Shown: piece by piece, positions 14,196-28,227 of the stretch
Position numbering within the stretch: position 1 is the stretch's first letter
Layout of the letters: each line of letters opens with the position of its first letter
From: a virus
Strand: one strand, 5' to 3'
Length of the DNA: 28,551 nt
Virus record (IMG/VR): IMGVR_UViG_3300027805_001414
Coordinates: 1 to 28,551 of that record
The notes under the pieces: generated by a model
The model's input: the letters and a program-made list of their open reading frames with translations, nothing else
Database searches by the model: none
What the model was told of the DNA's origin: nothing
Translations under genes and position numbers: made by a program

Positions 14196-14207
14196 TTGGA
14201 GAAAAAA

Positions 14208-14846
14208 ATGTACGTTATTACACATCATCACGACTATGACGAAGTTCTACTAGGACCAATTAATTGGAATCCAAGATTTATCTCATCAGTCCTTCAAAGT
14301 GATCTTGATCTTGATGAAGCACCAACTGTTCTTGCTTCAGATGAGCAGAGAGTGCCTTATGATATCTTACCAAACGTGCGTGTTCGTAAAGCTGTAACTT
14401 CTTACGCTGAACTAAACGCAAAGATACAGAGACACGAAGGTCCTTTCTGGACTTATGATAATGATGAAGCAACTGCAACATTTACAGCAGTAGATAAACC
14501 ACTTGATCTTGTCAAAGGTGAACTGAAGTCACTTGTTGCAGCCGAGCGTTATAAAAAAGAAAATGCTGGTATCAAAATAACAATACAGGGCACTGAGGTA
14601 ACATGTGATACATCAAGAGAGAACCGTGATATCTTCTTGCAAAGATTATTAACAATGGCACCTACAGACACGGTAAACTGGAAATTTCCAGAAGCATTCA
14701 TAACTATCACATACAGTGAACTTGAAAGTATCATCAATGCTGGTGTTGTTCACATTCAAAGTTGTTTTGATTGGGAACTTGCTAAGGATGTTGAAATTGA
14801 TGCTTGTACAACGTTATCACAACTAGACGCAATAGTAATAGAGTAA
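14208..14846 (+). CDS. DUF4376-like protein, possible fibre accessory
   Basis: The start chosen is ATG 14208 with GGAG at 14198-14201 (spacing 6). An in-frame TTG at 14196 is less likely. 212 residues. The C-terminal ~110 residues (KGELKSLVAAERYKKENAG, VTCDTSRENRDIFLQRLL, NWKFPEAFITITYSELESII, HIQSCFDWE) match the DUF4376 pattern I recall from phage tail-fibre regions. The N-terminal ~80 residues (MYVITHHHDYDEVLLGPINW...) are a separate domain like those seen next to fibre genes. Function is not established; a tail-fibre assembly or attachment role is suggested by context. It lies between RCC1 proteins A and B. Confidence 0.7.
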   Translation: MYVITHHHDYDEVLLGPINWNPRFISSVLQSDLDLDEAPTVLASDEQRVPYDILPNVRVRKAVTSYAELNAKIQRHEGPFWTYDNDEATATFTAVDKPLDLVKGELKSLVAAERYKKENAGIKITIQGTEVTCDTSRENRDIFLQRLLTMAPTDTVNWKFPEAFITITYSELESIINAGVVHIQSCFDWELAKDVEIDACTTLSQLDAIVIE

Positions 14847-14847
14847 A

Positions 14848-16071
14848 ATGTCAACTAATTTCAATACTTGTTTTATAGACTCAAATGGTGCAGATGTAAG
14901 TCAAGAATTCGTTGAGAAATCTTATCTTCTTGATGTGTATCCTAATCTAATTAATCCTGCAAAAGCGCCGTCATTGTGGTTATGGGCATGTAATATTGAT
15001 GGTAACCTTGGTACGAACTCTACTGTAGATCAATCATCTCCAGTTCAAACTGTATCTGGTGGTACTAATTGGAAAGAAGTTCATGCGGGTTGTCTATTAA
15101 CAGCAGCTATCAAGACAGATGGTACTTTATGGCTATGGGGTAATAATCTTACTGGTCAATTGGGCAATAACTCTGTATTAAATCAATCATCTCCAGTTCA
15201 AACAATATCTGGTGGAACTAATTGGAAGCAAGTAAGTTCAGGATGCGGTCACTCAGCAGCAATCAAAACTGATGGTACACTTTGGCTTTGGGGCGAGGCA
15301 CTCAATGGTAGATTAGGCAATAATCTTTCTTCTTTAACAAAGCAATCATCTCCTGTTCAAACTGTGTCAGCAGGTACTAATTGGAAACAAGTTAGTTTAG
15401 GTACTAATCATTCAGCAGCAATCAAAACAGATGGTAGCCTTTGGTTGTGGGGTTGCGGTACTAGCGGTGCATTAGGTCAAGCAACGACAACTGCTAATCA
15501 ATCATCTCCAGTACAAACTGCATCTGTTGGTACAAACTGGAAGCAGGTAAGTTTAGGTGGTACGAGTACGACCTCAACATCAGCAGCAATCAAAACTGAT
15601 GGTACACTTTGGCTTTGGGGCGATGGTACAAATGGCATTTTAGGTAACAATGCAACAACTGCACGTTCATCTCCAGTTCAAACTGTATCTGGTGGTACTA
15701 ACTGGAAACAAGTTTCATTAGGTTCTTGTCACTCAGCGGCTATCAAAACTGATGGTAGCCTTTGGTTGTGGGGTCTTGCTGCTTCTGGTAGACTTGGTAA
15801 TAACTCTACTGTGGATCAATCAACTCCAGTTCAAACTGTATCAGGTGGAACTAATTGGAAACAGGTCAGTGCAGGTACTGCACATACAGCAGCGATTAAG
15901 ACCGATGGTACTTTATGGCTATGGGGTTTTGGTACGGCAGGCAGACTAGGTGACAATTCTACAGTAACTAGATCCTCTCCTGTTCAAACTATATTAGCTG
16001 GAAATAACTGGAAACAAGTTAGTGCTGGCGGCTGTCAAACAGCAGCAATCAAAGAAGAAGGAGACTGGTAA
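14848..16071 (+). CDS. RCC1-type seven-bladed propeller protein B
   Basis: 407 residues. An N-terminal ~45-residue segment (FNTCFIDSNGADVSQEFVEK...) is followed by seven LWLWG units of the RCC1 type with SSPVQT, GTNWKQVSLG and AAIKTDG signatures. A two-blade module appears duplicated: the DGT aca-ctt codon form at 15271 is followed by DGS agc-ctt at 15430, and the same pair recurs at 15598 and 15751. The terminal codons (EEGDW) contain AAGGAG at 16058-16063, the ribosome-binding site of protein C, whose ATG overlaps this stop by one base. The role is inferred as a virion adhesin. Confidence 0.85.
   Translation: MSTNFNTCFIDSNGADVSQEFVEKSYLLDVYPNLINPAKAPSLWLWACNIDGNLGTNSTVDQSSPVQTVSGGTNWKEVHAGCLLTAAIKTDGTLWLWGNNLTGQLGNNSVLNQSSPVQTISGGTNWKQVSSGCGHSAAIKTDGTLWLWGEALNGRLGNNLSSLTKQSSPVQTVSAGTNWKQVSLGTNHSAAIKTDGSLWLWGCGTSGALGQATTTANQSSPVQTASVGTNWKQVSLGGTSTTSTSAAIKTDGTLWLWGDGTNGILGNNATTARSSPVQTVSGGTNWKQVSLGSCHSAAIKTDGSLWLWGLAASGRLGNNSTVDQSTPVQTVSGGTNWKQVSAGTAHTAAIKTDGTLWLWGFGTAGRLGDNSTVTRSSPVQTILAGNNWKQVSAGGCQTAAIKEEGDW
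16058..16063 (+). promoter_or_regulatory. Shine-Dalgarno for RCC1 protein C inside RCC1 protein B codons
   Basis: AAGGAG lies 7 bases before the ATG at 16071 and is part of the codons for the final residues of the upstream propeller. It supports translational coupling of the two paralogues. Confidence 0.7.
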
Positions 16072-17240
16072 TGGGTTGTCAATCAGGTTACAGATTTCCT
16101 TATGATAGTAGAACAGCAGACTTTGATGATGTGTTCGTTCGCAAAGAATACTTCTCTGAGGGTGGATTGTGGGTATGGGGAAGAGGTGATGCCGGCATTT
16201 TAGGTAATAACACTAGAGGTGTTGGTCAGTCATCACCAGTGCAGACTATATCAGGTGGAACTAATTGGAAACAAGTTAGTACAGACGGTACTGGCTCAGT
16301 GCCAATTGCCGCTGGTATAAAATCTGATGGTACTCTGTGGATGTGGGGTTGTGGTACGGCAGGAAGACTTGGCATAAACATAGCATCAGCCTCTAGATCA
16401 TCACCAGTTCAAACTGTGTCTGGTGGTACTAACTGGAAAGTAGTAACTGTAAGTCAATTTAATACAGCAGCAATCAAAACTGATGGCACTCTCTGGCTAT
16501 GGGGTTGCGGTACTGCCGGTGCATTAGGCACTAACAGTATAGTTAATCAATCGTCTCCTGTTCAAACTATCTCTGCTGGAACCAACTGGAAACAAGTTAG
16601 TTTAGGCAGTCACATCGCAGCTATCAAAACAGATGGTACTCTTTGGCTTTGGGGTTGTAACAATTGTGGTCAATTAGGTAACAATGCAATAACTGACCGT
16701 TCATCACCTATCCAAACTGTATCTGGTGGTACTAACTGGAAAGAAATATCGGCGTCAGGTCAGGCAACAGCATCTATTAAAACTGATGGTTCTTTGTGGG
16801 TTTGGGGTTGGGAAAATGGTGGAAATTTAGGAACAAATACTCCAGCAAGGGCGATATCATCACCCGTCCAAACAGCAGCTGGCGGCAATAATTGGAAACA
16901 AGTTAGTATTACTACAAACGCTGGAGGCGCAATTAAGACAGATGGTACGCTTTGGTTGTGGGGACAATCACAATTTGATGGAAATACTGTTCTGGGCGTA
17001 TCATCTCCAATTCAACAATGGTCTGGCGGCACTAATTGGAAACAAGTTTCACTTCAAGGCGCCGACCTGATCGCCATAAAAACAGATGGCACACTTTGGA
17101 CAGTCAAAGGTGATTTAGCAGGTGATAATACTATAACTAGCAGATCATCTCCTGTTCAGACTGTTTCTGGTGGTACTAATTGGAAAGATGTATGTAGGGG
17201 CAGCAATCATGTAATTGCAATCAGAGAAGACTGCTGGTAA
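16071..17240 (+). CDS. RCC1-type propeller protein C, last blades degenerate
   Basis: 389 residues. The N-terminal segment (FPYDSRTADFDDVFVRKEYF) differs from A and B but is similarly placed before the first LWVWG. Seven RCC1 units can be counted. The sixth (LWLWGQSQFDGN) is shortened and the seventh has LWTVKGDLAGD in place of LWLWGxxxxGxLG, so the closing blades have drifted. The remaining units keep SSPVQT, NWKQVS and IKTDGTLW. It is the last gene of the adhesin array; only 18 bases separate it from the next, functionally different gene. Confidence 0.85.
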   Translation: MGCQSGYRFPYDSRTADFDDVFVRKEYFSEGGLWVWGRGDAGILGNNTRGVGQSSPVQTISGGTNWKQVSTDGTGSVPIAAGIKSDGTLWMWGCGTAGRLGINIASASRSSPVQTVSGGTNWKVVTVSQFNTAAIKTDGTLWLWGCGTAGALGTNSIVNQSSPVQTISAGTNWKQVSLGSHIAAIKTDGTLWLWGCNNCGQLGNNAITDRSSPIQTVSGGTNWKEISASGQATASIKTDGSLWVWGWENGGNLGTNTPARAISSPVQTAAGGNNWKQVSITTNAGGAIKTDGTLWLWGQSQFDGNTVLGVSSPIQQWSGGTNWKQVSLQGADLIAIKTDGTLWTVKGDLAGDNTITSRSSPVQTVSGGTNWKDVCRGSNHVIAIREDCW

Positions 17241-17258: not shown

Positions 17259-17636
17259 ATGAGTGAATTTAGACCTTGTGATGAATGTACAGCATGTTGC
17301 GATGGGTGGCTTATTGGCGAAGTCAATGGTCATCCATTCGGTCATGGTAAACCCTGCCAATTTCTCATCAATAAAATCTGCACTATATACAAAGACAGAC
17401 CAAGCATGTGTCGCAACTATCAATGTGCTTGGACACAGCATCTTTTTCCTGAGTGGATGAAACCTAACAAGTGTGGTGTTCTCATCTCTGTAGAAACAAA
17501 AGAAGACCATCAGTTTCTCAGAGTGATTGAAATGAAACCTGTGATAGACTATGCTGTGTATGCTGAGATTGAAAAGTTCTGTTCTGAAAACAATACTTAC
17601 TATGTGAAGGTGCCATATGAAGATAGACACGCTTGA
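17259..17636 (+). CDS. YkgJ-family cysteine cluster protein
   Basis: 125 residues, with cysteines at 7, 10, 13 and 14 (CDECTACC) and further cysteines at 33, 41, 51 and 56, the spacing typical of the YkgJ/PF03692 putative zinc- or iron-chelating family. The biochemical role of that family is not settled. No strong Shine-Dalgarno is visible before ATG 17259, but the N-terminal cysteine motif begins at residue 7 and the next gene overlaps the 3' end by 20 bases, so the start is probable. It opens the rightward glycan-gene run. A 127-codon antisense frame covers the same bases and is judged a shadow. Confidence 0.75.
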   Translation: MSEFRPCDECTACCDGWLIGEVNGHPFGHGKPCQFLINKICTIYKDRPSMCRNYQCAWTQHLFPEWMKPNKCGVLISVETKEDHQFLRVIEMKPVIDYAVYAEIEKFCSENNTYYVKVPYEDRHA

Positions 17637-18315
17637 TTATAAAATGCATTTTGATGATGTAGAAGCATACATCATTACTCTCAAAGGGCATTCCAAGTCA
17701 GAAGAACTTTCACTTCGCTGCCAAGATTCCTGCATCAAAGCTGAACAACCATTCCGTGTTTGGGATGCATTTGATGGTACTTCAGGTGAGATACACTATC
17801 CCGATCATGCGAAAGATCAAGATCATTATCGTTTCCTCAAGCAGATGAATGATCGTCTTACCATCACAGAAGTCGCAACAATTCTCTCTCACTATTCTCT
17901 TTGGGCACATTGCGTCAAGATCGATATACCTATTGTCATACTTGAGCATGATGCTATAATGGTCAATAAGTATATTTGGCATGACGGATGGAATCAGATC
18001 AACTATCTAGGCAACTATAGTCAATTACAGACTGGCTGGCCTAGTTTTCCACCACATTCAGCAGCAACGAAGAACTATAAGTTTATCTGTCGCGCACATG
18101 CGTATGCTGTTGATCCTGCCGTAGCAAGACAGTTAGTCTCACATGTTATCAAGTTTGGTCTTGCTGCACCTGCTGATATGCTCATTCGTGCTGATCTATT
18201 TCCATTAGTACAGACTGGATTCTATGCGTTTGATGCACCAGATGAGACTACGATTACAGGCCGTAAAGATGATTGGCACGAATACGCTAGAGAAATATTT
18301 TCAACATTCGCTTAA
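17617..18315 (+). CDS. Glycosyltransferase family 25-like protein
   Basis: 232 residues. The start at 17617 has AAGG 7 bases upstream, inside the previous gene; an internal ATG at 17644 lacks one. The N-terminal EAYIITLKGHSKSEELSLRC and QPFRVWDAFDGTSG, then EVATILSHYSLWAHCVKIDIPIVILEHDA, follow the GT25 (LPS biosynthesis) layout, where a short loss of the usual ExD-D is seen as E110-H111-D112. A later AYAVDPAVARQLV segment also fits. Family members transfer sugars to lipopolysaccharide or glycoprotein acceptors. Donor and acceptor here are unknown. The histidine inside the metal-binding acidic motif is unusual. Confidence 0.75.
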   Translation: MKIDTLDYKMHFDDVEAYIITLKGHSKSEELSLRCQDSCIKAEQPFRVWDAFDGTSGEIHYPDHAKDQDHYRFLKQMNDRLTITEVATILSHYSLWAHCVKIDIPIVILEHDAIMVNKYIWHDGWNQINYLGNYSQLQTGWPSFPPHSAATKNYKFICRAHAYAVDPAVARQLVSHVIKFGLAAPADMLIRADLFPLVQTGFYAFDAPDETTITGRKDDWHEYAREIFSTFA

Positions 18316-18324
18316 GGATACATT

Positions 18325-18912
18325 ATGTATAAATTTGATCACGACTGGTTCAGTTCAAACATTCCTAATCTGACAAGGCTCTTTGCTGGGTTCAAGGGTG
18401 ATAGTCCTGCAAATATTCTAGAGATAGGTGCATTTGAAGGTAGGTCTACTGTATGGTTTCTAGACAATGTGCCTGACTGCACTATCACGACTATTGATAC
18501 TTGGATAGGCGGCAAAGATCATGATCCTAACAATCCAGAAATCAACTGGAATACCGTGTTTGAAAACTTCACACACAATACCAAAGGCCGAAATGTACAT
18601 GCCTTTGAAGCAACATCATTCAATGCGCTTTCTCTTATGATCAAAGAAGGTAAAGACAAGTTTGATTTTGTATATGTTGATGGATCTCATACAGCACTAG
18701 ATGTCAATCTTGATCTAATTCTATCATTCAAGCTTCTTAAAACTGGCGGTCTAATTTACTGTGATGATTATCTTTGGGGCTTTAATGAGTTTCCTATCTA
18801 TGATTGCCCGAAACTCGGTATAGATAGCTTTGTGAATGTCTATGCAGATAAGTTAACTCCACTTCAAGGTTTTACAAACAATGCTGCAATCTACATGAAG
18901 GTGAAAGAATGA
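18325..18912 (+). CDS. Class I SAM-dependent methyltransferase (Methyltransf_24-like)
   Basis: 195 residues, with AAGGA just upstream of the ATG. Motif I is ILEIGAFEGRST (residues 31-42). The acidic residue ending the second strand is D58 in TTIDTW. Later come FVYVDGSHT and LKTGGLIYCDDY, the typical order of this Rossmann-fold family, often found in surface-polysaccharide clusters. The substrate is likely a sugar or glycan hydroxyl, inferred from the flanking glycosyltransferases. The stop overlaps the next ATG (ATGA). Confidence 0.8.
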   Translation: MYKFDHDWFSSNIPNLTRLFAGFKGDSPANILEIGAFEGRSTVWFLDNVPDCTITTIDTWIGGKDHDPNNPEINWNTVFENFTHNTKGRNVHAFEATSFNALSLMIKEGKDKFDFVYVDGSHTALDVNLDLILSFKLLKTGGLIYCDDYLWGFNEFPIYDCPKLGIDSFVNVYADKLTPLQGFTNNAAIYMKVKE

Positions 18913-19460
18913 AAGTTAATCTAGGTAGTGGTATCAAGAGATTTCCTGGTTTCGTAAATCTTGATAGTGATCCTTTGTGTAAACCAGATTACATCTGTGA
19001 TATGAATAAAGAATCTTTGCCGTTTGAAGATAACTCAGTTGAGTATATGCTTGCACATCATGTCTTTGAACATATTGGTGATGGGTTCTTCAATCTGCTT
19101 AAAGAAATCTACCGTGTCTGTCAGCACGAAGCAATCATTGATGTACATGTTCCACATCCAAGACACGATTACTTTTTAGGTGATCTGTCACATGTAAGAA
19201 TGATCACACTAGAAAACATGCGTCCGCTCTCTAAGAAGTTCTGTGATACTCAGAGTTATATAAATTCATCATGGAGCGGTTTTGCAAATGTTCTTGATGT
19301 TGATTTTGAAATCTTTGAACATGAGTATTTGCTAGATGAAACATTCAAACAAGTTATTGCAGGCATTGAAGATGAAAATCAAATGAACTGGATGGCAAGA
19401 GCGATGAATAATGCAATCACAGAAATTCACTTTAAGATGATGGTGATCAAGAATGCTTGA
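18909..19460 (+). CDS. SAM-dependent methyltransferase (type 11-like)
   Basis: 183 residues. The glycine-rich motif I is at the extreme N-terminus (VNLGSG, 3-8). FVNLDSD supplies the acidic ribose-binding residue, and SVEYMLAHHVFEHI with FNLLKEIYRVC is the usual motif IV region of Methyltransf_11 enzymes found in polysaccharide loci. The C-terminal part carries HPRHDYFLGDLSHVRMIT. It overlaps the previous gene by four bases and the next by eight, so it is co-translated. The acceptor is unknown; a glycan intermediate is the inference. Confidence 0.75.
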   Translation: MKVNLGSGIKRFPGFVNLDSDPLCKPDYICDMNKESLPFEDNSVEYMLAHHVFEHIGDGFFNLLKEIYRVCQHEAIIDVHVPHPRHDYFLGDLSHVRMITLENMRPLSKKFCDTQSYINSSWSGFANVLDVDFEIFEHEYLLDETFKQVIAGIEDENQMNWMARAMNNAITEIHFKMMVIKNA

Positions 19461-20787
19461 ACAATTAGTTTTATCTCTTGATCAGATGGGTGAGAAACCG
19501 GCGGCCGTAACAGTGCTTGACGCGCTGGCTAGAAATTCAAGCATGTTTCAGCAGTATGATGATGTAGCTAAATGCTACTTCAAGATCAAAGAGTATGAAA
19601 AGGCATTAAAGTATGCTGAGTTAGCCCTTTCATCTGCACCAACGCAAGGACTATATGCAGCAAAGTACAATGTGATCAACGTAGCCAATCATGCAAACTA
19701 TCCTGAACGAGCCATGACATTGATCAAGCAGCTCGAGATAATCAATCCAAATGATCTTGATGTAAAGCTTGAGAAAGCTTTCTCATTCTTCTTGTTGAAC
19801 CAGAAAGATAAGGCTGAAGCGATACTTAGAGCAGAATTAGATAATCCAAAACATGACGAGAAGACTAAGACTAAGATACGCTTCAATCTTGGTACATATG
19901 AATTATTAAGAGATGAATTTCAGACTGGTCTACGCAAGTTCCTCTTTGAAGGCCGTAAGCTAGAATATTGGAAAAAACCTTCTTTACCTTTCAAGTTCTG
20001 GGAAGGCGAAAACATTGAAGGCAAGACGCTGGTAATCCGCGCTGAAGCTGGTATCGGTGATGAGTTCATCAACGTTCGCTTCATGAAGCATCTGAGAGAG
20101 CGTAACATAAGCCCGATCTGGTTCTCTGAACGTAAAGATATTGCCGAAGTCTTCAACAGAAACGGTTTCAAAACCGTCACTAATGTTCGTGATATCAAAG
20201 ACAAAAATGTATACTGGACTCATTCAATGGACTTACCAGTCTATCTGAACCTTGAGTATAAAGACCTTTGGAACGAACCGTATATCAAGAGTAACGAACA
20301 ACATATATCACAATTCAATCTAAATGGTGATATGCCAAAAGTTGGTCTTCGATGGCAGGGTAATCCAGGTTACGATCAAGACCTACACCGTTCAATACCT
20401 TTGAAAGAGATGTATGACACTCTAAGTCATTTGAATATTCGTATGTGCAGTGTGCAACGAGATGATGGTGTTGAAGAATTAGGCAATCTACCTATCATCG
20501 ATATGTCATCATACATGAAGACATGGGAAGACACTCTCAACATCATCGACCAACTTGATGTTCTTATCACTAGCTGCACTTCAGTAGCACATGCCGCGGC
20601 AGCAATGGGTAAGAGAACAATTGTGATCACTCCTATTTCAGCTTACTATACGTGGTGTCATAGCATGAAGCAATCACCGTGGTATGGTGATCATGTAACA
20701 ATATTGAGACAACAGAAACCCAGAGTATGGGATGAGCCTTTAGCAGAACTCAAGGAGATAATGAATGCAGAGTTTGGTAATCGATAA
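19453..20787 (+). CDS. TPR-repeat protein with C-terminal GT9-like glycosyltransferase domain
   Basis: 444 residues. Residues ~1-165 are helical repeats of TPR type (YDDVAKCYFKIKEYEKALKYAELAL is the clearest). From ~185 (WEGENIEGKTLVIRAEAGIGDE) to the end the pattern matches the heptosyltransferase-like (GT-B, family 9-related) domain found with TPRs in bacterial glycosyltransferases: KVGLRWQGNPG with HRSIPL at ~296-317, then LDVLITSCTSVAHAAAAMGKR and SPWYGDHVTILRQ. In such proteins the TPR part commonly engages a protein acceptor, making protein glycosylation possible here (inference). It overlaps both neighbours. Confidence 0.75.
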   Translation: MLEQLVLSLDQMGEKPAAVTVLDALARNSSMFQQYDDVAKCYFKIKEYEKALKYAELALSSAPTQGLYAAKYNVINVANHANYPERAMTLIKQLEIINPNDLDVKLEKAFSFFLLNQKDKAEAILRAELDNPKHDEKTKTKIRFNLGTYELLRDEFQTGLRKFLFEGRKLEYWKKPSLPFKFWEGENIEGKTLVIRAEAGIGDEFINVRFMKHLRERNISPIWFSERKDIAEVFNRNGFKTVTNVRDIKDKNVYWTHSMDLPVYLNLEYKDLWNEPYIKSNEQHISQFNLNGDMPKVGLRWQGNPGYDQDLHRSIPLKEMYDTLSHLNIRMCSVQRDDGVEELGNLPIIDMSSYMKTWEDTLNIIDQLDVLITSCTSVAHAAAAMGKRTIVITPISAYYTWCHSMKQSPWYGDHVTILRQQKPRVWDEPLAELKEIMNAEFGNR

Positions 20788-21370
20788 CTTCTTACCTTAT
20801 CCAAATGTTGTAAGAGAGTGGGCGTTGACAAAAACGTTTTATAACAGTACACAGTTCTCTCAGAGAATAGGTTCTAGCACAACATGGCCTGGCAAAAGAA
20901 CAGATCATGTTGTAGACCTTGATGCTTCATATGCAGATGATATTTTAACCAAAGTCAGTAATATAGCACGAAAGACTTTCTTTGATGCACCTTTATCAGT
21001 CAGAAGTTACTTTCAACTATGTTCTCAATCAGACGGTGACTCTTGGATCCATCAAGATAATGATGTAGATATTGCAGCACTACTCTATCTTAGCCCTGAT
21101 GCGCCGATCAATTCTGGTACAACACTATATAAATGTCTAGATCAGGCTGCATGGCAAAATCTAGCCATTGGTGAGATGATGAAGATCAATCGTCAAGAAC
21201 GTGAAGACTTATATGAAAAGCTATTCGTGCCAGTTGATGTAATAGGCAATCTATATAACAGAATGGTCATGTATCGCGGTGATATCTTTCACAAGTCAAA
21301 CGACTACTTTGGTAGCTCAAAGTTTGACAGCAGACTGACACAGGTATTCTTTTTGAAATTTGAGAGATAA
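20765..21370 (+). CDS. 2-oxoglutarate/Fe(II) oxygenase-like protein (DUF6445-like)
   Basis: 201 residues. AAGGAG at 20752-20757 gives spacing 7 to the ATG, which lies inside the end of the previous gene. The opening LVIDNFLPYPNVVREWAL resembles DUF6445-type proteins. An iron-binding set is visible: H96-x-D98 (WIHQDND), distal H176 (GDIFHKSND) and R190 (DSRLTQ) in the place expected for the 2-oxoglutarate carboxylate. Strand LLYLSP follows the HxD motif as in double-stranded beta-helix oxygenases. It would hydroxylate a sugar, amino acid or peptide; the substrate is unknown. Its place in the cluster suggests tailoring of the glycan or its acceptor. Confidence 0.7.
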   Translation: MQSLVIDNFLPYPNVVREWALTKTFYNSTQFSQRIGSSTTWPGKRTDHVVDLDASYADDILTKVSNIARKTFFDAPLSVRSYFQLCSQSDGDSWIHQDNDVDIAALLYLSPDAPINSGTTLYKCLDQAAWQNLAIGEMMKINRQEREDLYEKLFVPVDVIGNLYNRMVMYRGDIFHKSNDYFGSSKFDSRLTQVFFLKFER

Positions 21371-21374
21371 TATT

Positions 21375-22307
21375 ATGCACACAACATTTATGATTGACGG
21401 CGGAGCTGGGCGCCTCGTTACTGCCATTCCTGCACTTGAGAAGTTTGCTATCAATAATCCTAATGATGACTTTCGTGTGTTGACGGCAGCATGGGAAGAA
21501 ATCTATTGGAATCATCCTCTGTTACAGAATAGGACTTTTAACGTCAATCAAAAAGGTATCTTTGATCTACATATCAAAGATCGTCGTATGGTTGTACCAG
21601 AACCATATCATATGCACGGATACTATAATCAAAAGCTGCATTTAATTGAAGCGTTTGATGAAGCTATCAACCATACAACAGATCATTCTGATCTAGACAA
21701 AGCTAACCTCTATGTGTCAAAGAAAGAAACGACACAAGCACAATTCATTCTTAATGAGATCAAGAAGCAAAAGAAGAAGAATAGAGTAATCATCTTTCAA
21801 CCTTATGGTTCTGGCATGAAGATTGAGAACAATGTGCCGATTGACACAACCAATCGTAGTCTTGATGTGGATTTTGCTCTCAAGATGATCCATGAAATGT
21901 CTAAAGACAACTTGGTAATATTTTTTGGATCTAAAGAGCTTTATCATCCAGGTGATAACTACTCAGTCAACTTCTTTAATAACAATGCTGATATCCGTCT
22001 TTACATGACAATGATCAGTCTATGTGATTATTTTGTTGGAGTAGATTCTCTTGGGCAGCATATTGCTAGAGCTATGAATAAACCAGGTATGGTAATTATG
22101 GGTTCTACGTTTGAAGAGAACGTGTCATACAAAGATTACTTCACTATCTACAGAAACAGATTTGCACCGGTCTATGTGCCTATCCGAATTGCAAATCAAG
22201 ATATTACGTTTGCAGAAAACCTAAATGATGGTACAATGCAGTTTAACGACGAAGACCTGAAGAACATATTGGAAAAGATCAATGAAAAGAAACTTCAAAG
22301 TAAATAA
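21375..22307 (+). CDS. GT9-like (heptosyltransferase-like) glycosyltransferase
   Basis: The start taken is ATG 21375 (310 residues); an in-frame TTG at 21360 lies inside the previous gene. The N-terminus IDGGAGRLVTAIPALEKF fits the G-x-G-x(6)-P-x-L loop of GT-B heptosyltransferases. The C-terminal half has VIFQPYGSG, RSLD and CDYFVGVDSLGQHIARAMNKPGMVIMG, matching the VGxDSxxxHIAxAxxxP donor-site signature. Because the same phage region encodes HldE- and HldD-like proteins, an ADP-heptose donor is plausible but unproven. The 3' end overlaps the next gene by 26 bases. Confidence 0.7.
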   Translation: MHTTFMIDGGAGRLVTAIPALEKFAINNPNDDFRVLTAAWEEIYWNHPLLQNRTFNVNQKGIFDLHIKDRRMVVPEPYHMHGYYNQKLHLIEAFDEAINHTTDHSDLDKANLYVSKKETTQAQFILNEIKKQKKKNRVIIFQPYGSGMKIENNVPIDTTNRSLDVDFALKMIHEMSKDNLVIFFGSKELYHPGDNYSVNFFNNNADIRLYMTMISLCDYFVGVDSLGQHIARAMNKPGMVIMGSTFEENVSYKDYFTIYRNRFAPVYVPIRIANQDITFAENLNDGTMQFNDEDLKNILEKINEKKLQSK

Positions 22308-22821
22308 GAGCGTCCTCAATTTTATTCACGCGCGAGACTATTTCCCACCGCAAGATGCTGAGAACTATCGTTATGCAGTGAAAAATCTAAAGTTTGAACC
22401 GATGCAGTATGGTAAAGAGATTAAGCAGTTCAATCTTATTTTACCTGAGACAGACATGCTTCTTGGCGCTATGCTTGGTGAAAACTTTGCGAAGGTTGAC
22501 GAAGATAGGTCAGGCACGTTCAGATATCCTTTCGATAATGTTATTCATTTTGAAGAGTTTGATACTATTCACGAATGGAGACTTGCTGTTGCACTTGAAG
22601 ACACTATCTTCAGAACATACACACACACGACAGGTATCAAGTCAGCACTTGACTGTAAGAACGAAGAATGGAAGACGTTTGATTATCTGAATCCAGAACA
22701 GTGGAATATAGAGACACAAATCAATCTCAGAGAGAACGATGCTGTATTCTATAGACCATGGGTATTTCATTCATTTGAAGAAAAGCTTATTCATTGCTAT
22801 ACTATTATGGTTGAAGAATGA
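22282..22821 (+). CDS. Unknown protein, possible beta-helix (cupin/oxygenase-like) fold
   Basis: 179 residues, start ATG 22282 within the previous gene and a 4-base ATGA overlap with the next, so translation within the operon is well supported. I cannot assign a family. The C-terminal LRENDAVFYRPWVFHSFEEKLIHCYTI resembles the distal strands of double-stranded beta-helix proteins, with histidines in WVFHSF and LIHCY, and NVIHFEEFD might supply an upstream metal ligand. If so, it would be a second oxygenase or isomerase in the cluster. This is a weak structural guess. No membrane segments or signal peptide are seen. Confidence 0.6.
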   Translation: MKRNFKVNKSVLNFIHARDYFPPQDAENYRYAVKNLKFEPMQYGKEIKQFNLILPETDMLLGAMLGENFAKVDEDRSGTFRYPFDNVIHFEEFDTIHEWRLAVALEDTIFRTYTHTTGIKSALDCKNEEWKTFDYLNPEQWNIETQINLRENDAVFYRPWVFHSFEEKLIHCYTIMVEE

Positions 22822-23531
22822 TACCTAAAATTATTCATGTTTCATGGAAGTCAAAAGACATACTCAATGATAACACAGAGCTTATCAATAGAGGTCTAAA
22901 GTCTCTTGTTGAGTTGAATCCTGATTGGGAATTACAGTTATCAGACAATGATGATGTTGAACGATATCTATCTAAAAATTTAGATGTTTTTGATTTTGCT
23001 TTGCTGAAGCCAAGACATATTGTTGAGAAGCTGGATGTGTGGAGACTGATCAAACTATACAACGAAGGTGGACTGTATACTGATATCGACAGGTTTTATA
23101 ATCTACCTCTATCTGACATTTTGGCACCTGGTATCAAGCTTGTATTACCTACATGTCTTGATCATGATTTCACTCACGATTTCATGTTGAGTGAACCAAA
23201 CAATCCAATTTATGCAACAGCACTTAAACTGAACTTAGAACGCCGTAAAGAAGGTCATGATAATATCTACTACCTCGGCGCACAAACATATATGCATGCC
23301 GTTACAAAATGTTTGGTCAATGAAATGATTAATACTAATCCAGGTGAGAAGATCATGAATGCGTTACGAGAAGTAATGGTTCAGAGTAAGTTCATTGTGA
23401 CACGCAAAGAAGAACCACCGATTCGTAATATATTATTCATTTGCGATAAAACACCACTAGAAGAACATGAAAGAATGAAAAGAGAATTTTATTTAAAGTA
23501 TAAGATGAATCACTGGTCTGGACAATGGTAA
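22818..23531 (+). CDS. GT32-like glycosyltransferase with DxD motif
   Basis: 237 residues. The family opening IPKIIHVSW, then ELNPDWELQLSDNDD, VEKLDVWRLIKLYNEGGLYTDID (DxD at D89-I90-D91) and FMLSEPNNPIYATALKL follow the Gly_transf_sug/OCH1-like (PF04488) pattern of metal-dependent GT-A enzymes that add hexoses using nucleotide sugars. Length is normal for bacterial and phage versions. It overlaps both neighbours (4 and 7 bases), placing it firmly in the same translation unit. Sugar and acceptor are unknown. Confidence 0.8.
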   Translation: MIPKIIHVSWKSKDILNDNTELINRGLKSLVELNPDWELQLSDNDDVERYLSKNLDVFDFALLKPRHIVEKLDVWRLIKLYNEGGLYTDIDRFYNLPLSDILAPGIKLVLPTCLDHDFTHDFMLSEPNNPIYATALKLNLERRKEGHDNIYYLGAQTYMHAVTKCLVNEMINTNPGEKIMNALREVMVQSKFIVTRKEEPPIRNILFICDKTPLEEHERMKREFYLKYKMNHWSGQW

Positions 23532-24205
23532 ATATAAAACTGCCAAGAATACTGCAACCGTTCTACTGTCACGACCTAGTGAGACTAGGCAAAGACAATG
23601 ACGGCGGATATTTGGTCAATTTAGAAGATGTGAAGAAGTCAAATGCTCTTGTCAGCTTTGGTATTGGTACTGACATATCATTTGAGAAAGACTTTCAGAC
23701 GCATAACAAATGTGACGTTAGAGCTTTTGATGGCACCATTGATCAATTTGATACCACATTCTTCAAAGGTAACAAAGTCTTTATGAAGAAGAACATATCA
23801 CTAGAAGATAGTGAAGAGACTGCATCTTTACCAACTATACTGAACACCATTGTAGGCAAAGCATTTCTCAAGTGTGATATCGATGGTTTTGAGTATCAAA
23901 TATTTGATCAACTCATAAACAATAGTCATCGTTTTTCAGGCATTGTAATAGAAATTCATGATATAGCTGTGTTAGCAAACTTTGACTTGCTAGCCGATTT
24001 CATTGCAAAGTTGGACTTACAGCTAATACATTTGCATATGAACAACTATTCTTACTATGATCATAACGGTATGATAACTCCAAACGTGATAGAGTTGACA
24101 TTTACTTCATCGTTTAATACAGTATTGAAAAGAGATTTGTCTTTACCACACCGTTTAGATATGCCTTGTAATCCAGATGGCAAAGATTTCTTAGTGAGTT
24201 TTTAA
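23525..24205 (+). CDS. FkbM-type methyltransferase
   Basis: 226 residues. The core LVSFGIGTDISFEKDF (motif I region), FDGTIDQFD and especially FLKCDIDGFEYQIF (~114-127), followed by FSGIVIEIHD, match FkbM/Methyltransf_21 family O-methyltransferases, which in polysaccharide loci methylate sugar hydroxyls. It is the last gene of the rightward run. Its final 15 bases overlap, tail to tail, the 3' end of the leftward hldD-like gene, so no intergenic terminator is present. Confidence 0.75.
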   Translation: MVNIKLPRILQPFYCHDLVRLGKDNDGGYLVNLEDVKKSNALVSFGIGTDISFEKDFQTHNKCDVRAFDGTIDQFDTTFFKGNKVFMKKNISLEDSEETASLPTILNTIVGKAFLKCDIDGFEYQIFDQLINNSHRFSGIVIEIHDIAVLANFDLLADFIAKLDLQLIHLHMNNYSYYDHNGMITPNVIELTFTSSFNTVLKRDLSLPHRLDMPCNPDGKDFLVSF

Positions 24206-25003
24206 CCAATCTTCAACAGTCATCATCTTCTCTGAGAACGGTCTGGCTGCTTCAGTATAATATTGATAGCTTGCCTTCATGTGTTCTGGCATATCAATAA
24301 ACTTAATAGGCACATCGTACTTGTCAGCCACCAATTGAGCTACTTTTAGAAAGCTAATTGGCTTTGCTGTACCTACTTCATTTAAGTTCCAAGAATAGTC
24401 TTCACCTGCCCATAGCAAAGCCTTCAATACATCACGAATAGACACAAAGTCTCGGATCATATTTTCTGAACCTTTGAAAACAGTAATCACACCTTCATTC
24501 TTGGCCTGTTGCTGAAACTTCCATACAGGGCTGGTTGTCATATTAGTCTTCTTCTCGTTATTACCATAGACATTGAACAGTCTCAGTATACAGAAATGTT
24601 CAAAATCTTTTCTGTTATTTTGCATCCACATTTCAGTCATCAGCTTCGTAGTCGCATAGTAGTTTAGCGGATTTATCTTGCGCTCACTATCTTTCATCGT
24701 GTTTCCATAGATAGAAGCTGATGATGTAAAGACTACAGGCACTTTGTATCTGATAGCCTGTTCAAATAGTCTTATGCTGAAGGTAACATTATGATCTAAC
24801 AATGCTTGCAAGTTCTTCTCTAGAGTATTAGAGATTGCGCCAAGATGATAGATCAGTTTTAGCTTTGAGAAGTCAACTGTTTCAAATACATCATTCAGCT
24901 TGTGATTTTCCGTATCAAACTCAAGCACTTCTTTATTTTGACTGAGCAAGTTGCCGACAAGATTGCGCCCAATAAAACCTTCTGATCCCGTCACTAAAAT
25001 CAT
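24191..25003 (-). CDS. hldD: ADP-glyceromanno-heptose 6-epimerase-like (HldD family)
   Basis: 270 residues (E. coli HldD is about 310). The NAD(P)-binding TGSEGFIG (5-12), YHLGAISNTLEK, FTSSASIYG and the catalytic Y116-x3-K120 (YYATTK) place it in the extended SDR epimerases. PEHMKASYQYYTEA near the C-terminus and the AISxTxEK segment are close to HldD signatures rather than to GalE or RmlB types. HldD converts ADP-D-glycero-D-manno-heptose to the L-glycero form. The ATG overlaps the cupin stop by four bases. The gene is shorter than the cellular enzyme, and another nucleotide-sugar substrate remains possible. Confidence 0.75.
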   Translation of the reverse strand: MILVTGSEGFIGRNLVGNLLSQNKEVLEFDTENHKLNDVFETVDFSKLKLIYHLGAISNTLEKNLQALLDHNVTFSIRLFEQAIRYKVPVVFTSSASIYGNTMKDSERKINPLNYYATTKLMTEMWMQNNRKDFEHFCILRLFNVYGNNEKKTNMTTSPVWKFQQQAKNEGVITVFKGSENMIRDFVSIRDVLKALLWAGEDYSWNLNEVGTAKPISFLKVAQLVADKYDVPIKFIDMPEHMKASYQYYTEAARPFSEKMMTVEDWLKTH

Positions 25004-25371
25004 CTGTATAGCCTATAGTTGTCTTCAACCGAGTCTGCGGTTGAAATTTCAAGAATGATTGAGTTATCTTCTAATGCTTCAAGTTGATGAGGCATCAATG
25101 GATCAATAGGAAATATTCTGTGAAGAGGTCTATCGTTCACAGTACCTGGTGTCAGTATGCGCTCTTTTGCTTCAGCAACGTCGGTATGAATGTATCTCAC
25201 AAGAAAACTACCTTGTATGACAGTCCATGTTTCATGCTTGTCTTTGTGAAAGTGCATGGATGTCTTATTGCCTGCCTTATCAAAGACAAGATACTTCGCA
25301 CAATACTTATCATTACTAACGAAGATATCTTCGTAACCCCACGACTTATCAACTCTTCCGTACAATCTCAT
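25000..25371 (-). CDS. Single-domain cupin, sugar isomerase/epimerase-like
   Basis: 123 residues. The opening GRVDKSWGYEDIF and GNKTSMHFHKDKHETW follow the type II mannose-6-phosphate isomerase/cupin pattern. Putative metal ligands are H40, H42, E47 and H95 (PHQLEAL). It is only the cupin domain, without a nucleotidyltransferase. It overlaps the hldE 3' end by 23 bases and the hldD start by four bases, so the three are co-translated. Context suggests action on a heptose or a heptose precursor, for example isomerisation or epimerisation. The exact reaction is unknown. Confidence 0.75.
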   Translation of the reverse strand: MRLYGRVDKSWGYEDIFVSNDKYCAKYLVFDKAGNKTSMHFHKDKHETWTVIQGSFLVRYIHTDVAEAKERILTPGTVNDRPLHRIFPIDPLMPHQLEALEDNSIILEISTADSVEDNYRLYR

Positions 25372-26548
25372 TTATCACTCCCGTGGTTGAATAGTTCTCT
25401 ACAGTAGATATAATTATCACTTTAGCAAGGTCATTACCTACAACATTTTCTATTTTGTAATCACCACCCTTGGTAATGATATCAGGTCTGATCTTCTTGA
25501 TCAGGTCGTAAGGCGTCTCTTCATCAAAGATGATTACTTCATCTGCAATACCTAGAGTTTCAAGCATAGTCTTGCGTTGATGCTGCTTTAGAATTGGTCG
25601 GTCAAAACCTTTGATCTTCTGCACTGATGCATCCGAATTGATACCAACGATTAGTCTGCGACCAAGCTTCTTTGACTCTTTGAGTAGATGAATGTGACCA
25701 GGATGTAGTATATCAAAGCAACCATTAGTAAACACAGTATTTGGCTTCATTGATACAGTTTCAATATCTTTTTCTGTCAGAGTGTATGTACCTATGTGCC
25801 CAACTGAAATGCCAGCAAGAATGTTTGCTCTGCTTGCTGCCCTCTCTACAGGCATACTCTGAACAAAGTGTGCAAGTGCTGCCATGAATACATCACCAGC
25901 ACCAGTTACATCAAGAACTGTACGCTCGTCGCCCTTTTCATATCGGCAAAAACTTCTTTCATGATCATATAGTGCATAGCCGTTAGCGCCAAGTGTAACA
26001 ATCAGATATTTGAAATCATACTCAACACACAGCATTTCAGCACAGTTTTTGAACTCGTTCAATGAGTATTTTCTACCGATAGCAGCCTCATACTCAGACT
26101 TGTTTGCTTTGATCAACCAAGAATGTCTATAGTGAGTAAAGTCTTTTTTTGGATCTATTAGTGTTTTGATGCCTGCAAGATTGAGTTTCCATATGACAGC
26201 TTGAGCATCATGCAGAACACCCTTGTTATAATCTGAAAGCACAGCGTACTTGTAATGAGAAAGATCAAAATCCAAATCAACTTCAAATGGAACATACTCT
26301 TCATCGTCTATGCGACAGATTATATGTCCATTGGCAATGACGCGGGTTTTAATCGTTCCCTGATCTTGATTGTGTATGAACAGAGGATTTTCACCAAAAG
26401 CTTGCAGATTTTTTACCACATTGAAAGCACCGCCTAGACGGACTTCTTCATGGGTAGGTATTATCACAGGAACAGGTGCTTCTGGTGAAAGCCTTGTGCT
26501 TGTTCCAAAGATGTACTTGTCTTTTATGTAATCACCGATAACTATCAT
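25349..26548 (-). CDS. hldE: Bifunctional heptose-7-phosphate kinase / heptose-1-phosphate adenylyltransferase (HldE-like)
   Basis: 399 residues from ATG 26548, which has GGA about 7 bases ahead; an in-frame GTG at 26560 would add four residues. The N-terminal PfkB-type kinase domain has MIVIGDY, TSTRLSPEAPVPV, GGAFNV and the phosphate-binding DVTGAGDVF (~213). From ~270 the cytidylyltransferase-like domain has FTNGCFDILHPGHIHLL with the HxGH signature, VGINSD and ITKGGDY. Both E. coli HldE domains are thus present in the same order, in a protein shorter than the ~477-residue cellular enzyme. It makes ADP-D-glycero-beta-D-manno-heptose, with a phosphatase step between its two reactions. It is first gene of the leftward cassette. 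Confidence 0.85.
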   Translation of the reverse strand: MIVIGDYIKDKYIFGTSTRLSPEAPVPVIIPTHEEVRLGGAFNVVKNLQAFGENPLFIHNQDQGTIKTRVIANGHIICRIDDEEYVPFEVDLDFDLSHYKYAVLSDYNKGVLHDAQAVIWKLNLAGIKTLIDPKKDFTHYRHSWLIKANKSEYEAAIGRKYSLNEFKNCAEMLCVEYDFKYLIVTLGANGYALYDHERSFCRYEKGDERTVLDVTGAGDVFMAALAHFVQSMPVERAASRANILAGISVGHIGTYTLTEKDIETVSMKPNTVFTNGCFDILHPGHIHLLKESKKLGRRLIVGINSDASVQKIKGFDRPILKQHQRKTMLETLGIADEVIIFDEETPYDLIKKIRPDIITKGGDYKIENVVGNDLAKVIIISTVENYSTTGVINEIVRKS

Positions 26549-26566
26549 TTCGCGTTCCACATTTCT

Positions 26567-26574
26567 TATAAATA
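26567..26574 (+). promoter_or_regulatory. T4-type late promoter upstream of gene 13
   Basis: TATAAATA is the exact T4 late-promoter -10 word. It is the only exact copy I found on either strand of the window. It stands 36 bases before the gene 13 ATG, at the strand switch, where a rightward late transcript of the neck genes would have to begin. In T4 such sites are read with the gp55/gp33/gp45 system. Confidence 0.75.
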
Positions 26575-26610: not shown

Positions 26611-27351
26611 ATGTCAGTTCCATCTACAAGAGAACAGCTAAAAGATTGGTGCTTACGTCAACTTGGTCATCCTGTCATTGAAATCAATGTGGACGATGAT
26701 CAGGTAGATGATCGTATTGACGAAGCATTTCAGTATTTTCGTGACTTCCATTTTGATGGTGTAGAACGCTGGTATCTCAAGCATCAAATCACAGATGAGA
26801 ACAAAGCAAATGGATGGATTCCTATAAACGATAACATCATAGGTGTTAATCGTATTTTTCCAATTACATCTTCAAACGCCACAGTCAATATGTTTGATTT
26901 GAGATATCAGCTAAGACTTCATGATCTTTATGACTTTACCAGCACATCATATGTCAACTATGTTTTGACAATGCAGCATATTCGTACACTTGATATGCTA
27001 TTTTCAGGTGAACAACCAGTTCGTTTCAACAGACACACAAGCAAACTATACATTGATATGAACTGGGGTCTGGCAAATGTTGGAGAATGGATTGTCATTG
27101 AATCGTTTATCATCATTGATCCAGATACTTATCCAAAAGTTTATAACGACCGTATGTTAAAGAGATATGCCACAGCACTGATCAAGCGTCAGTGGGGCAA
27201 CAACATGAAGAAGTTTGCAGGTATGCAGTTACCTGGTGGTATTCAGTTGAATGGGCAGCAGATTTACGAGGAAGCTGTTACTGAAATAAAAGAGGTTGAA
27301 GACCTGATTCGTAACACATACGAAGAACCACCACAGTTCTTGATGGGATAA
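26611..27351 (+). CDS. 13: Neck protein gp13 (T4-like)
   Basis: 246 residues. VPSTREQLKDWCLRQLGHPV, EINVDDDQVDDRIDEAFQYF, FDLRYQLRLHDLYDFT, FNRHTSKLYIDMNW and the C-terminal LIKRQWGNNMKKFAGMQLPG are characteristic of gp13 of T4-like marine phages. In T4, gp13 joins gp14 to complete the head-tail neck so that tails can attach. GGAG lies upstream at 26595-26598. Its place directly before gp14 and gp15 matches T4 order. Shorter than T4 gp13 (about 309 residues), as is usual in distant relatives. Confidence 0.9.
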   Translation: MSVPSTREQLKDWCLRQLGHPVIEINVDDDQVDDRIDEAFQYFRDFHFDGVERWYLKHQITDENKANGWIPINDNIIGVNRIFPITSSNATVNMFDLRYQLRLHDLYDFTSTSYVNYVLTMQHIRTLDMLFSGEQPVRFNRHTSKLYIDMNWGLANVGEWIVIESFIIIDPDTYPKVYNDRMLKRYATALIKRQWGNNMKKFAGMQLPGGIQLNGQQIYEEAVTEIKEVEDLIRNTYEEPPQFLMG

Positions 27352-27354
27352 AAC

Positions 27355-28227
27355 ATGGCAACTTCGGTCTACTTCAATAATTTTTCACCTGCTGTTCTCA
27401 ATGAACAAAGAATGTTTGAAGACGTTCTTGTGGAATCCATCAAGATTATGGGGCATGATATTAAGTATATGCCAAGAGATGCGTATGATAGCACAGATGA
27501 AATCATTGGTGAAAGCCCAGAAGCAAAATTTAATAGAGCATATACAATTGAAGCATATCTTGCTAACGTTGAAGGTTACGAAGGTGATGGTGACTTCTTC
27601 TCTAAGTTTGGTCTTGAAATTCGTGATACCTCAAACTTTGTTATTTCTAGAAGAGCGTTTGACAAATATATACCAGGAAACATTGCATCTAGACCACGTG
27701 AAGGTGATTTGATATTTGTTCCTCTTTTAGGTAAAATATTTGAAATCAAGTTCGTTGAAGAAGAAATTCTATTCTTCTCTCTAGGGCGTAGAAAACCATA
27801 CCTGTATGAGTTGCGTTGTGAAGTATTCCGCTTCTCACAAGAAGATATCAATACTGGTGATGAAGAGATTGATAGCTTGACTGACTTGATATCATACTCA
27901 ATCCACTTGAATATGAGTGTCGGTGCAAACAACTATCAAAATGGTGAGACTGTATATCAAGGTGCTAACGTGAGCGTTGCGACTGCTGTAGCGAAAGTTG
28001 CTAATTGGGAACCAATGACTAGAATCTTAGAGGTGATTAATATCAAAGGCAAGTTTACTAACAATGTCAACGTTATAGGTACAGATTCAAACACATCCAA
28101 GAGATTGCTAAACTATGATGAACTGAAAGATCACGTTCAGTTTGACGAATTTGATAACAGAAAAATACAAGATGAAGCAGAAGAGTTTGTTGATCTATCT
28201 GAAACAAATCCATTTGGGATGCCGTAA
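27355..28227 (+). CDS. 14: Neck protein gp14 (T4-like)
   Basis: 290 residues. The family opening SVYFNNFSPAVLNEQRMFED, then SYTIEAYL-like AYTIEAYLANVEGYEGDGDFFSKFG, then GLEIRDTSNFVISRRAF, REGDLIFVPLLGKIFEIKFVEEE and RKPYLYELRCEVFRFS, match T4-like gp14. It forms the neck with gp13 and seals the filled head. It follows gp13 after a 3-base gap. The stop overlaps the gp15 ATG by one base (TAATG). Confidence 0.9.
   Translation: MATSVYFNNFSPAVLNEQRMFEDVLVESIKIMGHDIKYMPRDAYDSTDEIIGESPEAKFNRAYTIEAYLANVEGYEGDGDFFSKFGLEIRDTSNFVISRRAFDKYIPGNIASRPREGDLIFVPLLGKIFEIKFVEEEILFFSLGRRKPYLYELRCEVFRFSQEDINTGDEEIDSLTDLISYSIHLNMSVGANNYQNGETVYQGANVSVATAVAKVANWEPMTRILEVINIKGKFTNNVNVIGTDSNTSKRLLNYDELKDHVQFDEFDNRKIQDEAEEFVDLSETNPFGMP

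Follow-up and report, generated by a model that had tools for sequence, protein, structure and literature searches.

Why does a T4-like aquatic phage carry a set of ADP-heptose, sugar transferase and modification genes between its adhesin genes and its neck genes, and what would the sugars be attached to? The locus lies in a window of 28,551 nucleotides, the whole stretch of DNA that was analyzed (IMG/VR record IMGVR_UViG_3300027805_001414, positions 1 to 28,551). A first-pass annotation had proposed a heptose-containing glycan placed either on virion fibers or on the host envelope. Our preferred reading, which we consider probable (roughly 0.6), is O-glycosylation by the phage of its own RCC1 adhesins, probably with heptose first, followed by elaboration of the sugar.

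Gene content of the island

Thirteen open genes, ten on the plus strand and three on the minus strand, fill the interval from 17259 to 26560 between RCC1-repeat adhesin genes and gp13, with 11 of the 12 gene junctions overlapping and the remaining one being a 9-bp gap. The packed arrangement between adhesin array and neck described earlier was therefore confirmed; its right end at 26548 is the ATG of HldE, but the open reading frame itself starts further out, at a GTG at 26560. Upstream, on the plus strand, lie genes for RCC1-repeat (beta-propeller) adhesins a (12993 to 14195; linked to TPR-GT in relatives), b (14848 to 16071), and c (16071 to 17240), identified by Pfam WD40_RLD/RCC1 matches, and, between the first two, a DUF4376 tail-fiber-type protein that is a usual neighbor (14196 to 14846; PF14301, 3e-10; phrog_10508, tail fiber). 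Downstream lie the neck genes gp13 and gp14 (26611 to 28227, plus strand; phrog_211 and phrog_460).

Family assignment by Pfam, NCBIfam, and PHROG agreed with the earlier calls, with the transferase part of TPR-GT being assigned by fold. The plus-strand genes begin with a CxxCxxCC cysteine-cluster protein (17259 to 17636; PF03692, at cut-off) with 8 invariant Cys in the alignment; it is a recurrent TPR-GT partner, has only weak YcgN-family database matches, and is fused to an oxygenase in locus L113. It is followed by a GT25 glycosyltransferase with an intact and conserved EHD motif (17617 to 18315; PF01755, 2e-13), by methyltransferases of the Methyltransf_24 (18325 to 18912; Pfam, 7e-16) and Methyltransf_11 (18909 to 19460; Pfam, 5e-6) types, the latter a frequent TPR-GT partner, and by TPR-GT itself (19453 to 20787). 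Next come a DUF6445 protein (20765 to 21370; PF20043, 6e-7), in which the HxD...H...R signature of Fe(II)/2OG oxygenases is invariant in 25 of 25 homologues, and a GT9-like transferase of T4-GC 302 type (21360 to 22307; phrog_8954, 1e-81; GT9 Pfam score below threshold, 17.5 of 22 bits), which keeps DSxGQH and has Arg where the usual catalytic Asp stands. A 179-amino-acid protein (22282 to 22821), previously listed as an unknown, has a predicted Fe(II)/2OG double-stranded beta-helix fold with HxE...H invariant in its alignment; a single-sequence PDB search returned nothing and no phage record matched. Weak profile matches of this protein to GmhB (E values of 0.07 to 0.09) were discarded, the fold being that of a 2OG oxygenase. 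A GT32-like DXD glycosyltransferase with DID intact (22818 to 23531; PF04488, 5e-9) and an FkbM-type methyltransferase (23525 to 24205; PF05050, 3e-5) complete the plus-strand set. Megablast of the cluster matched none of the phage records, and PADLOC gave a single marginal match only, so a defense reading was not adopted.

The ADP-heptose cassette

The three minus-strand genes encode HldE, with heptose-7-P kinase and heptose-1-P adenylyltransferase parts (25349 to 26560; NF008454, 2e-89, below cut-off; PDB 4e84), a cupin of T4-GC 307 type (25000 to 25371; phrog_7851, 8e-30) that is absent at this position from L111, and an HldD-like ADP-heptose 6-epimerase of T4-GC 308 type (24191 to 25003; TIGR02197, 1e-51; PDB 1eq2, 5.6e-56). 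HldE and HldD both score under the NCBIfam equivalog cut-offs; the PDB relatives of HldD at E values of 1e-20 or less are ADP-heptose 6-epimerases only. Thus, both of these ADP-heptose pathway genes are present in the island, while the GmhA isomerase and the GmhB phosphatase are absent among the window genes. HldE domain II was detected in 7 of 13 long TPR-GT records, and ADP-heptose therefore cannot be a universal phage-made donor.

The cassette has precedents. Homologues roughly 30 to 46% identical to the island HldE, cupin, and HldD occur at the same site in marine cyanophages; those of P-SSM2, S-SSM7, and S-CAM1 adjoin fiber genes, with that of S-SSM7 one gene from gp13, and T4-GC 304/305/307/308 were already discussed in 2010 (PMC3037559). 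The Nol-like carbamoyltransferase of the cyanophage set is, like GmhA, missing from the 13 window genes, and a GT9-carbamoyltransferase pairing occurs in 20 of 21 other HldD loci of at least 12 kb. The idea of an undescribed system is thus not supported for the heptose cassette beside gp13; the tight link between TPR-GT and adhesins is what appears to be undescribed. The cyanobacterial-host marker psbA is present in 4 of 12 TPR-GT records and absent in the other 8, and it is absent from the long gp13 relatives searched.

Linkage of TPR-GT to RCC1 adhesins

The linkage between TPR-GT and RCC1 adhesins is close to obligate. RCC1 genes were found in 40 of the 42 distinct loci of the TPR-GT scan, both exceptions being truncated upstream, and in all 53 of 53 loci they lie on the same strand as TPR-GT with a median gap of 40 bp; these loci share ancestry, and p-values for the linkage are therefore inflated, nor does linkage alone prove what the substrate is. 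After RCC1-fetched loci were left out, RCC1 was present in 18 of 19 TPR-GT clusters at 70% identity (the exception is truncated) and in 11 of 11 at 50% identity. Among HldD loci of at least 12 kb, RCC1 occurs in 14 of 14 with TPR-GT versus 1 of 37 without it. In the reverse direction, 47 of 58 RCC1 loci contain TPR-GT. Across 50,697 phage records, close RCC1 relatives occur in three phages (S-SRM01, AG-345-E08, and BUCT-ZZ01), and these make up three of the four TPR-GT phages. The pair is kept in the S-SRM01 type though gp13 is not a neighbor, and it is also found, often with MT11, in Bdellovibrionaceae MAGs. A role in DNA organization has been suggested for phage RCC1 proteins (PMC7247149); judged from gene position, they are presumably receptor-binding fibers.

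Fold of TPR-GT and its likely acceptor

Sequence searches gave no glycosyltransferase match to TPR-GT in Pfam, and among the best PDB matches listed for its profile only TPR was seen; its GT9-like identity is therefore assigned from the predicted fold, an N-terminal TPR region and a GT-B domain like that of ADP-heptose transferases. The top Foldseek matches of the AF2 model (pLDDT, 92.5) were OGT/SPINDLY proteins (TPR plus GT-B), and the best VIA-align scores of the GT domain were to GT9 heptosyltransferases (Z of 15 to 17 for WaaF/WaaC/TibC; 16 for TibC), with OGT chains (GT41) listed too. D203, R313, and H380 are invariant in the alignment, only one Cys is conserved (23 sequences), and a sulfotransferase-TPR-GT fusion occurs in L071.

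The OGT-like fold suggests protein acceptors. The sugars might instead go to another virion protein, a small molecule, or a nucleic acid, with the RCC1 adhesins merely linked, as the 179-amino-acid oxygenase-fold protein has structural neighbors (AviO1, SnoN, and HygX) that act on small glycosides. We regard this as very improbable, because the TPR-GT architecture matches protein glycosyltransferases and the linkage is to RCC1 and not to capsid genes.

Recurrence, selection, and exchange of the island

The same gene set recurs in the same order in L111 (83 to 99% amino acid identity) and, reduced to fewer genes, in L251 (47 to 89%), a recurrence that is more than chance. For the CxxC-to-HldD genes, dN/dS between the window and L111 is 0.02 to 0.17, and motifs are intact; the island genes are under purifying selection and are not the inactive relics that had been allowed for. 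A 7.7-kb block, one edge of which is the adhesin/glycan junction, has been swapped between phage backbones without the adhesins, so that the specificity between TPR and adhesin must be loose.

Could the interval before gp13 simply gather useful or neutral genes, with the glycan set functionally untied to the adhesins? Very different cargo occupies this slot in gp13 relatives, including radical-SAM/DegT/GNAT (L024), TPR-FkbM-DUF6445 (L014 and L020), and periplasmic-binding-like proteins (L015, L020, and L025) or adhesins alone, and "stuffer DNA" was raised by Sullivan et al. (PMC3037559). The strong purifying selection, however, argues against this, as does the retention of the TPR-GT/RCC1 pair away from gp13 and in MAGs, and we consider it quite unlikely.

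Virion adhesins or host envelope

The main rival to adhesin glycosylation is remodeling of the host envelope, with heptose-containing sugars added to host LPS or surface glycan to block superinfection or grazing, as proposed by the cyanophage authors for P-SSM2. HldE and HldD are LPS inner-core precursor enzymes, GT25, GT9, GT32, and FkbM families are frequent in LPS loci, and host lipid A-core could be extended by cytosolic transferases without phage flippases. No transmembrane segments were predicted in the cluster proteins, all of which look cytosolic. Genes for lipid-linked polysaccharides (initiating phosphoglycosyltransferase, Wzx flippase, and Wzy polymerase/ligase; PF02397, PF01943, and PF04932) were found in 0 of 13 long TPR-GT phage records, while control searches gave matches. 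Exclusion would also need early expression, but the genes come after those of the adhesins and share their strand.

TATAAATA, a T4-type late promoter motif, precedes gp13 at the end of the island (26567 to 26574, plus strand), is the sole exact copy in the window, and also precedes gp13 in L002, L003, L111, L161, L015, L020, and L027. Late motifs of the form NATAAATA elsewhere were at chance level, and the gp13 site alone was retained. A sigma-70-like promoter candidate upstream of HldE on the minus strand (26606 to 26578, 10/12) was rejected; the number of such sites equals that in shuffles and the site is not conserved in L002, L003, L111, and L161, and we therefore claim no "early" heptose cassette.

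Given the TPR-GT/RCC1 linkage, which extends to MAGs outside phages, the OGT/TibC-like architecture, and the lack of membrane proteins and of lipid-linked export genes in the 13 long relatives, the evidence favors virion adhesins as the target; envelope remodeling seems unlikely.

A proposed model of adhesin glycosylation

For adhesin glycosylation, we infer the acceptor, the donor, the order of the enzymes, the late timing, and the benefit. During infection, HldE and HldD, presumably with host GmhA/GmhB, would supply ADP-heptose inside the cell. The TPR domain of TPR-GT would recognize freshly made RCC1-propeller adhesins, and the enzyme would move the first sugar, probably heptose, onto Ser/Thr side chains. 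The GT25, GT9-like, and GT32 enzymes may then lengthen the glycan, which the methyltransferases and the two Fe(II)/2OG oxygenases (in relatives, sulfotransferases) may cap or tailor. The glycan-coated adhesins would then be built into the tail, with a coat outside host control that may improve fiber solubility or protease resistance or change receptor and decoy binding.

More tentatively, and with the odds in our view against it, there may be a dedicated O-heptosylation of RCC1 beta-propeller adhesins common to T4-like phages of several hosts and Bdellovibrio-like predators, in which a TPR-guided heptosyltransferase is combined with a swappable 7.7-kb tailoring block that changes the sugar coat independently of the protein, like serotype switching.

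The LPS-like clusters of T4-like cyanophages have had no assigned target for two decades ("functional or stuffer DNA"; PMC3037559), and the TPR-GT/RCC1 linkage singles out one acceptor and one enzyme, testable with two genes. If true, adhesin glycosylation would account for many phage RCC1 proteins of unexplained role, and sugar coats would join the exchangeable traits of the phage receptor-binding apparatus.

Comparison with known systems

Phage-encoded glycosylation of structural proteins has been reported or suspected for mycobacteriophage virions (Freeman 2023, cited in PMC10955285) and jumbo phage XacN1 (PMC5852040); neither an RCC1 adhesin nor a TPR-GT nor an ADP-heptose cassette is mentioned in the parts of these accounts that we consulted. 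OGT/SPINDLY proteins share the TPR plus GT-B architecture, but by VIA-align the GT domain of TPR-GT appears nearer to GT9 than to GT41. FlmG, the Caulobacter flagellin O-glycosyltransferase, is likewise cytosolic with an N-terminal TPR and a C-terminal GT-B domain, modifies a surface-appendage protein, as proposed here, and is an experimental precedent for TPR-directed O-glycosylation (PMC7591256); its donor is pseudaminic acid and its acceptors are flagellins, and the likeness considered here is one of domain layout. TibC, which has a four-cysteine iron finger, is the experimental precedent for adhesin-directed O-glycosylation (PMC4358343). Like TPR-GT, its BAHT family (TibC/AAH) combines a GT9-like ADP-heptose transferase fold with a gene adjoining an adhesin, whereas TPR-GT lacks the iron-finger cysteines and the N-terminal beta-barrel and has a TPR domain. 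The cyanophage heptose/"LPS" cluster T4-GC 302-308 (P-SSM2, S-SSM7, and S-CAM1) shares homologues of the HldE halves, cupin, HldD, and GT9-like protein and lies beside tail-fiber genes, near or adjoining gp13. It differs in having GmhA and a carbamoyltransferase, both missing from the island, and no RCC1/TPR-GT; in the island, HldE is fused, and TPR-GT, the CxxC protein, GT25, and the oxygenases are added.

Gene content of the island

The window, a complete 28.5-kb IMG/VR contig from a T4-like myovirus, encodes tail-fibre and S74 proteins, followed by three RCC1-repeat genes (12993-17240), thirteen island genes (17259-26560), gp13, and gp14. The glycan cluster described in the first-pass annotation is genuine, with every gene open and overlaps at 11 of 12 junctions, and its family names hold, subject to refinements for four proteins.

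The first, a TPR protein (TPR-GT; 19453..20787, plus strand), has no Pfam glycosyltransferase (GT) match in any of 23 homologues. Its predicted model (pLDDT 92.5) joins a TPR domain to a GT-B domain; SPINDLY and OGT rank top in Foldseek, and WaaF, a GT9 protein, TibC, and WaaC are best in VIA-align (Z 15-17). Residues D203 (in GIGDE) and H380 are invariant (23/23 homologues), and the motif suggests that D203 is the counterpart of the WaaC base. The 179-amino-acid unknown (22282..22821, plus strand) has a predicted Fe(II)/2OG-oxygenase fold (AviO1, EvdMO1, SnoN, and HygX at Z 10-12) with an invariant HxE...H, and HxD...H...R is present in 25 of 25 DUF6445 proteins. The GT9-like enzyme (21360..22307, plus strand; phrog_8954) retains DSxGQH but has Arg at the position of the heptosyltransferase Asp, and its chemistry may therefore differ from that of heptosyltransferases. 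Natural fusions occur in three relative loci (2OG oxygenase-CxxC, L113:8570-9433; sulfotransferase-TPR-GT, L071:1576-3327; TPR-FkbM-DUF6445, L014:4522-6369), which suggests that the fused enzymes share one substrate.

Linkage of TPR-GT and RCC1 genes

Genomic association is our main evidence, and it was viewed independently through separate scans seeded with TPR-GT, HldD, gp13, and RCC1. RCC1 genes accompany TPR-GT at 40 of its 42 distinct loci, on the same strand and at a median gap of 40 bp; related loci are not independent of each other, and both exceptions are truncated upstream. When TPR-GT sequences were clustered, leaving out loci found through RCC1, 18/19 clusters at 70% identity and 11/11 at 50% had RCC1. 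HldD loci fall into two kinds, with either TPR-GT and RCC1 or GT9 and carbamoyltransferase: among those of at least 12 kb, RCC1 occurred in 14/14 with TPR-GT versus 1/37 without it, and carbamoyltransferase accompanied GT9 in 20/21 of the other kind. TPR-GT was present in 47 of 58 RCC1 loci, the rest being mostly truncated. For comparison, RCC1 was found in 3 of 65 gp13 loci, two of the three being TPR-GT carriers.

Both genes occur in three annotated phages, S-SRM01, BUCT-ZZ01, and AG-345-E08. MW202512 is the only annotated phage with TPR-GT (21% identical) but without a close RCC1 match, and two Clostridioides phages have a distant RCC1 and no TPR-GT. In bacterial genome assemblies, RCC1 adjoins TPR-GT at four of six loci, three in Bdellovibrionaceae MAGs (two with an MT11 methyltransferase homologue next) and one on a phage-like contig binned as Bacteroidetes. 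In one Bdellovibrionaceae MAG (L333:7839-11277), TPR-GT is flanked on one side by long fibre-like genes and on the other by the gene for an RCC1 protein whose N-terminus is Tat-like, possibly reflecting surface-adhesin glycosylation in a predator.

Proposed mechanism

Hydropathy indicated no membrane segments in the thirteen island proteins, and no initiating phosphoglycosyltransferase, Wzx, or Wzy/ligase was found in thirteen long TPR-GT phage records, whereas control genomes have them. These absences argue that glycosylation takes place in the cytosol, on an acceptor that is soluble. Two precedents are known from experiment: FlmG carries out TPR-directed O-glycosylation with an appendage protein as acceptor (PMC7591256), and TibC, a GT9-type enzyme, heptosylates an adhesin (PMC4358343). 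Given its linkage to TPR-GT, the RCC1 adhesin would be the likeliest acceptor. The RCC1 proteins are presumed to be virion adhesins; a DNA role has been considered for RCC1 proteins (PMC7247149).

The likeliest donor in the window phage would be ADP-heptose, since HldE and HldD lie within the island (24191-26560, minus strand, with a cupin gene) and the fold of the GT domain is consistent with it. Only 7 of the 13 long TPR-GT records gave a match to HldE domain II, so the donor may vary among phages or be host supplied. The other GTs, methyltransferases, and oxygenases of the island would extend and cap the first sugar. The sole exact copy in the window of the T4-type late promoter motif TATAAATA (26567..26574, plus strand) precedes gp13 and is retained in relatives. 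Because the transferases come after the adhesins and no conserved promoter was found for them there, late co-expression with the adhesins is likely.

Selection and block exchange

Between the window and its relative L111, dN/dS was 0.02 to 0.17 for genes from CxxC (17259..17636, plus strand) to HldD. Identity was 0.60 to 0.75 over the greater part of the adhesin and neck genes but mostly 0.90 to 0.98 from 17251 to ~24950. One edge falls in the 18 bp that separate the CxxC gene from the last adhesin gene and the other at HldD/cupin, where L111 has a different HldE and no cupin. The transferase block thus behaves as an exchangeable unit, given these edges and the different transferase set, including a sulfotransferase, in two relatives (L002 and L161) that keep the adhesins and HldD-cupin-HldE. 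High-divergence patches inside the block lie in the methyltransferase MT24 (18325..18912), the end of MT11 (18909..19460), and the TPR-GT GT domain (20251-20550; 51 to 68% nucleotide identity versus ~95% around it); in L111, with its other HldE allele and no cupin, the last may reflect a change of donor specificity. HldE (25349-26560) is 90% identical to L002:9986-11200, versus 55% for HldD, 62% for cupin, 63% for gp14, and 77% for gp13, and seems to have been recently exchanged by itself.

Directly before gp13, three near relatives (L015:8409-9326, L020:9000-9974, and L025:3998-4927) carry genes resembling secreted periplasmic substrate-binding proteins, judged by eye to be TctC/NMT1-like, with signal-like N-termini, an unusual cargo for a phage. 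In a relative of 163 kb, this slot (L024:2554-9976) is occupied by genes judged by eye to be radical-SAM-like, DegT aminotransferase-like, ATP-grasp-like, and GNAT-like, possibly another modification island.

Comparison with known cyanophage clusters

Marine cyanophages share 35 to 38% identity with the window gp14, and metagenomic contigs are much closer relatives (gp13 73 to 81% identical). A cyanobacterial host is not indicated for the window phage, because psbA was absent from the long gp13 relatives searched, including a near relative on a 163,885-b contig.

The TPR-GT/RCC1 pairing appears to be the new part of the island and the heptose cassette the known part; none of the openly accessible journal papers found describes the pairing. 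A second island type in other phages (HldD loci such as L171, L200, and L212) combines a heptose cassette with GT9-like and carbamoyltransferase genes, without RCC1. In S-SSM7, S-CAM1, and P-SSM2, genes for HldE halves, a GmhA, a cupin of the same type, and HldD on the reverse strand adjoin those for tail fibres; the heptose set of S-SSM7 and S-CAM1 lies upstream of gp13. Co-occurrence of T4-GC 304, 305, 307, and 308 was reported by Sullivan et al. in 2010 (PMC3037559), whether they were functional being then unknown, and superinfection exclusion had been put forward as a role (PMC2984593). Since these three phages carry similar genes, already discussed in PMC3037559, the window cassette is a new member of an already known set.
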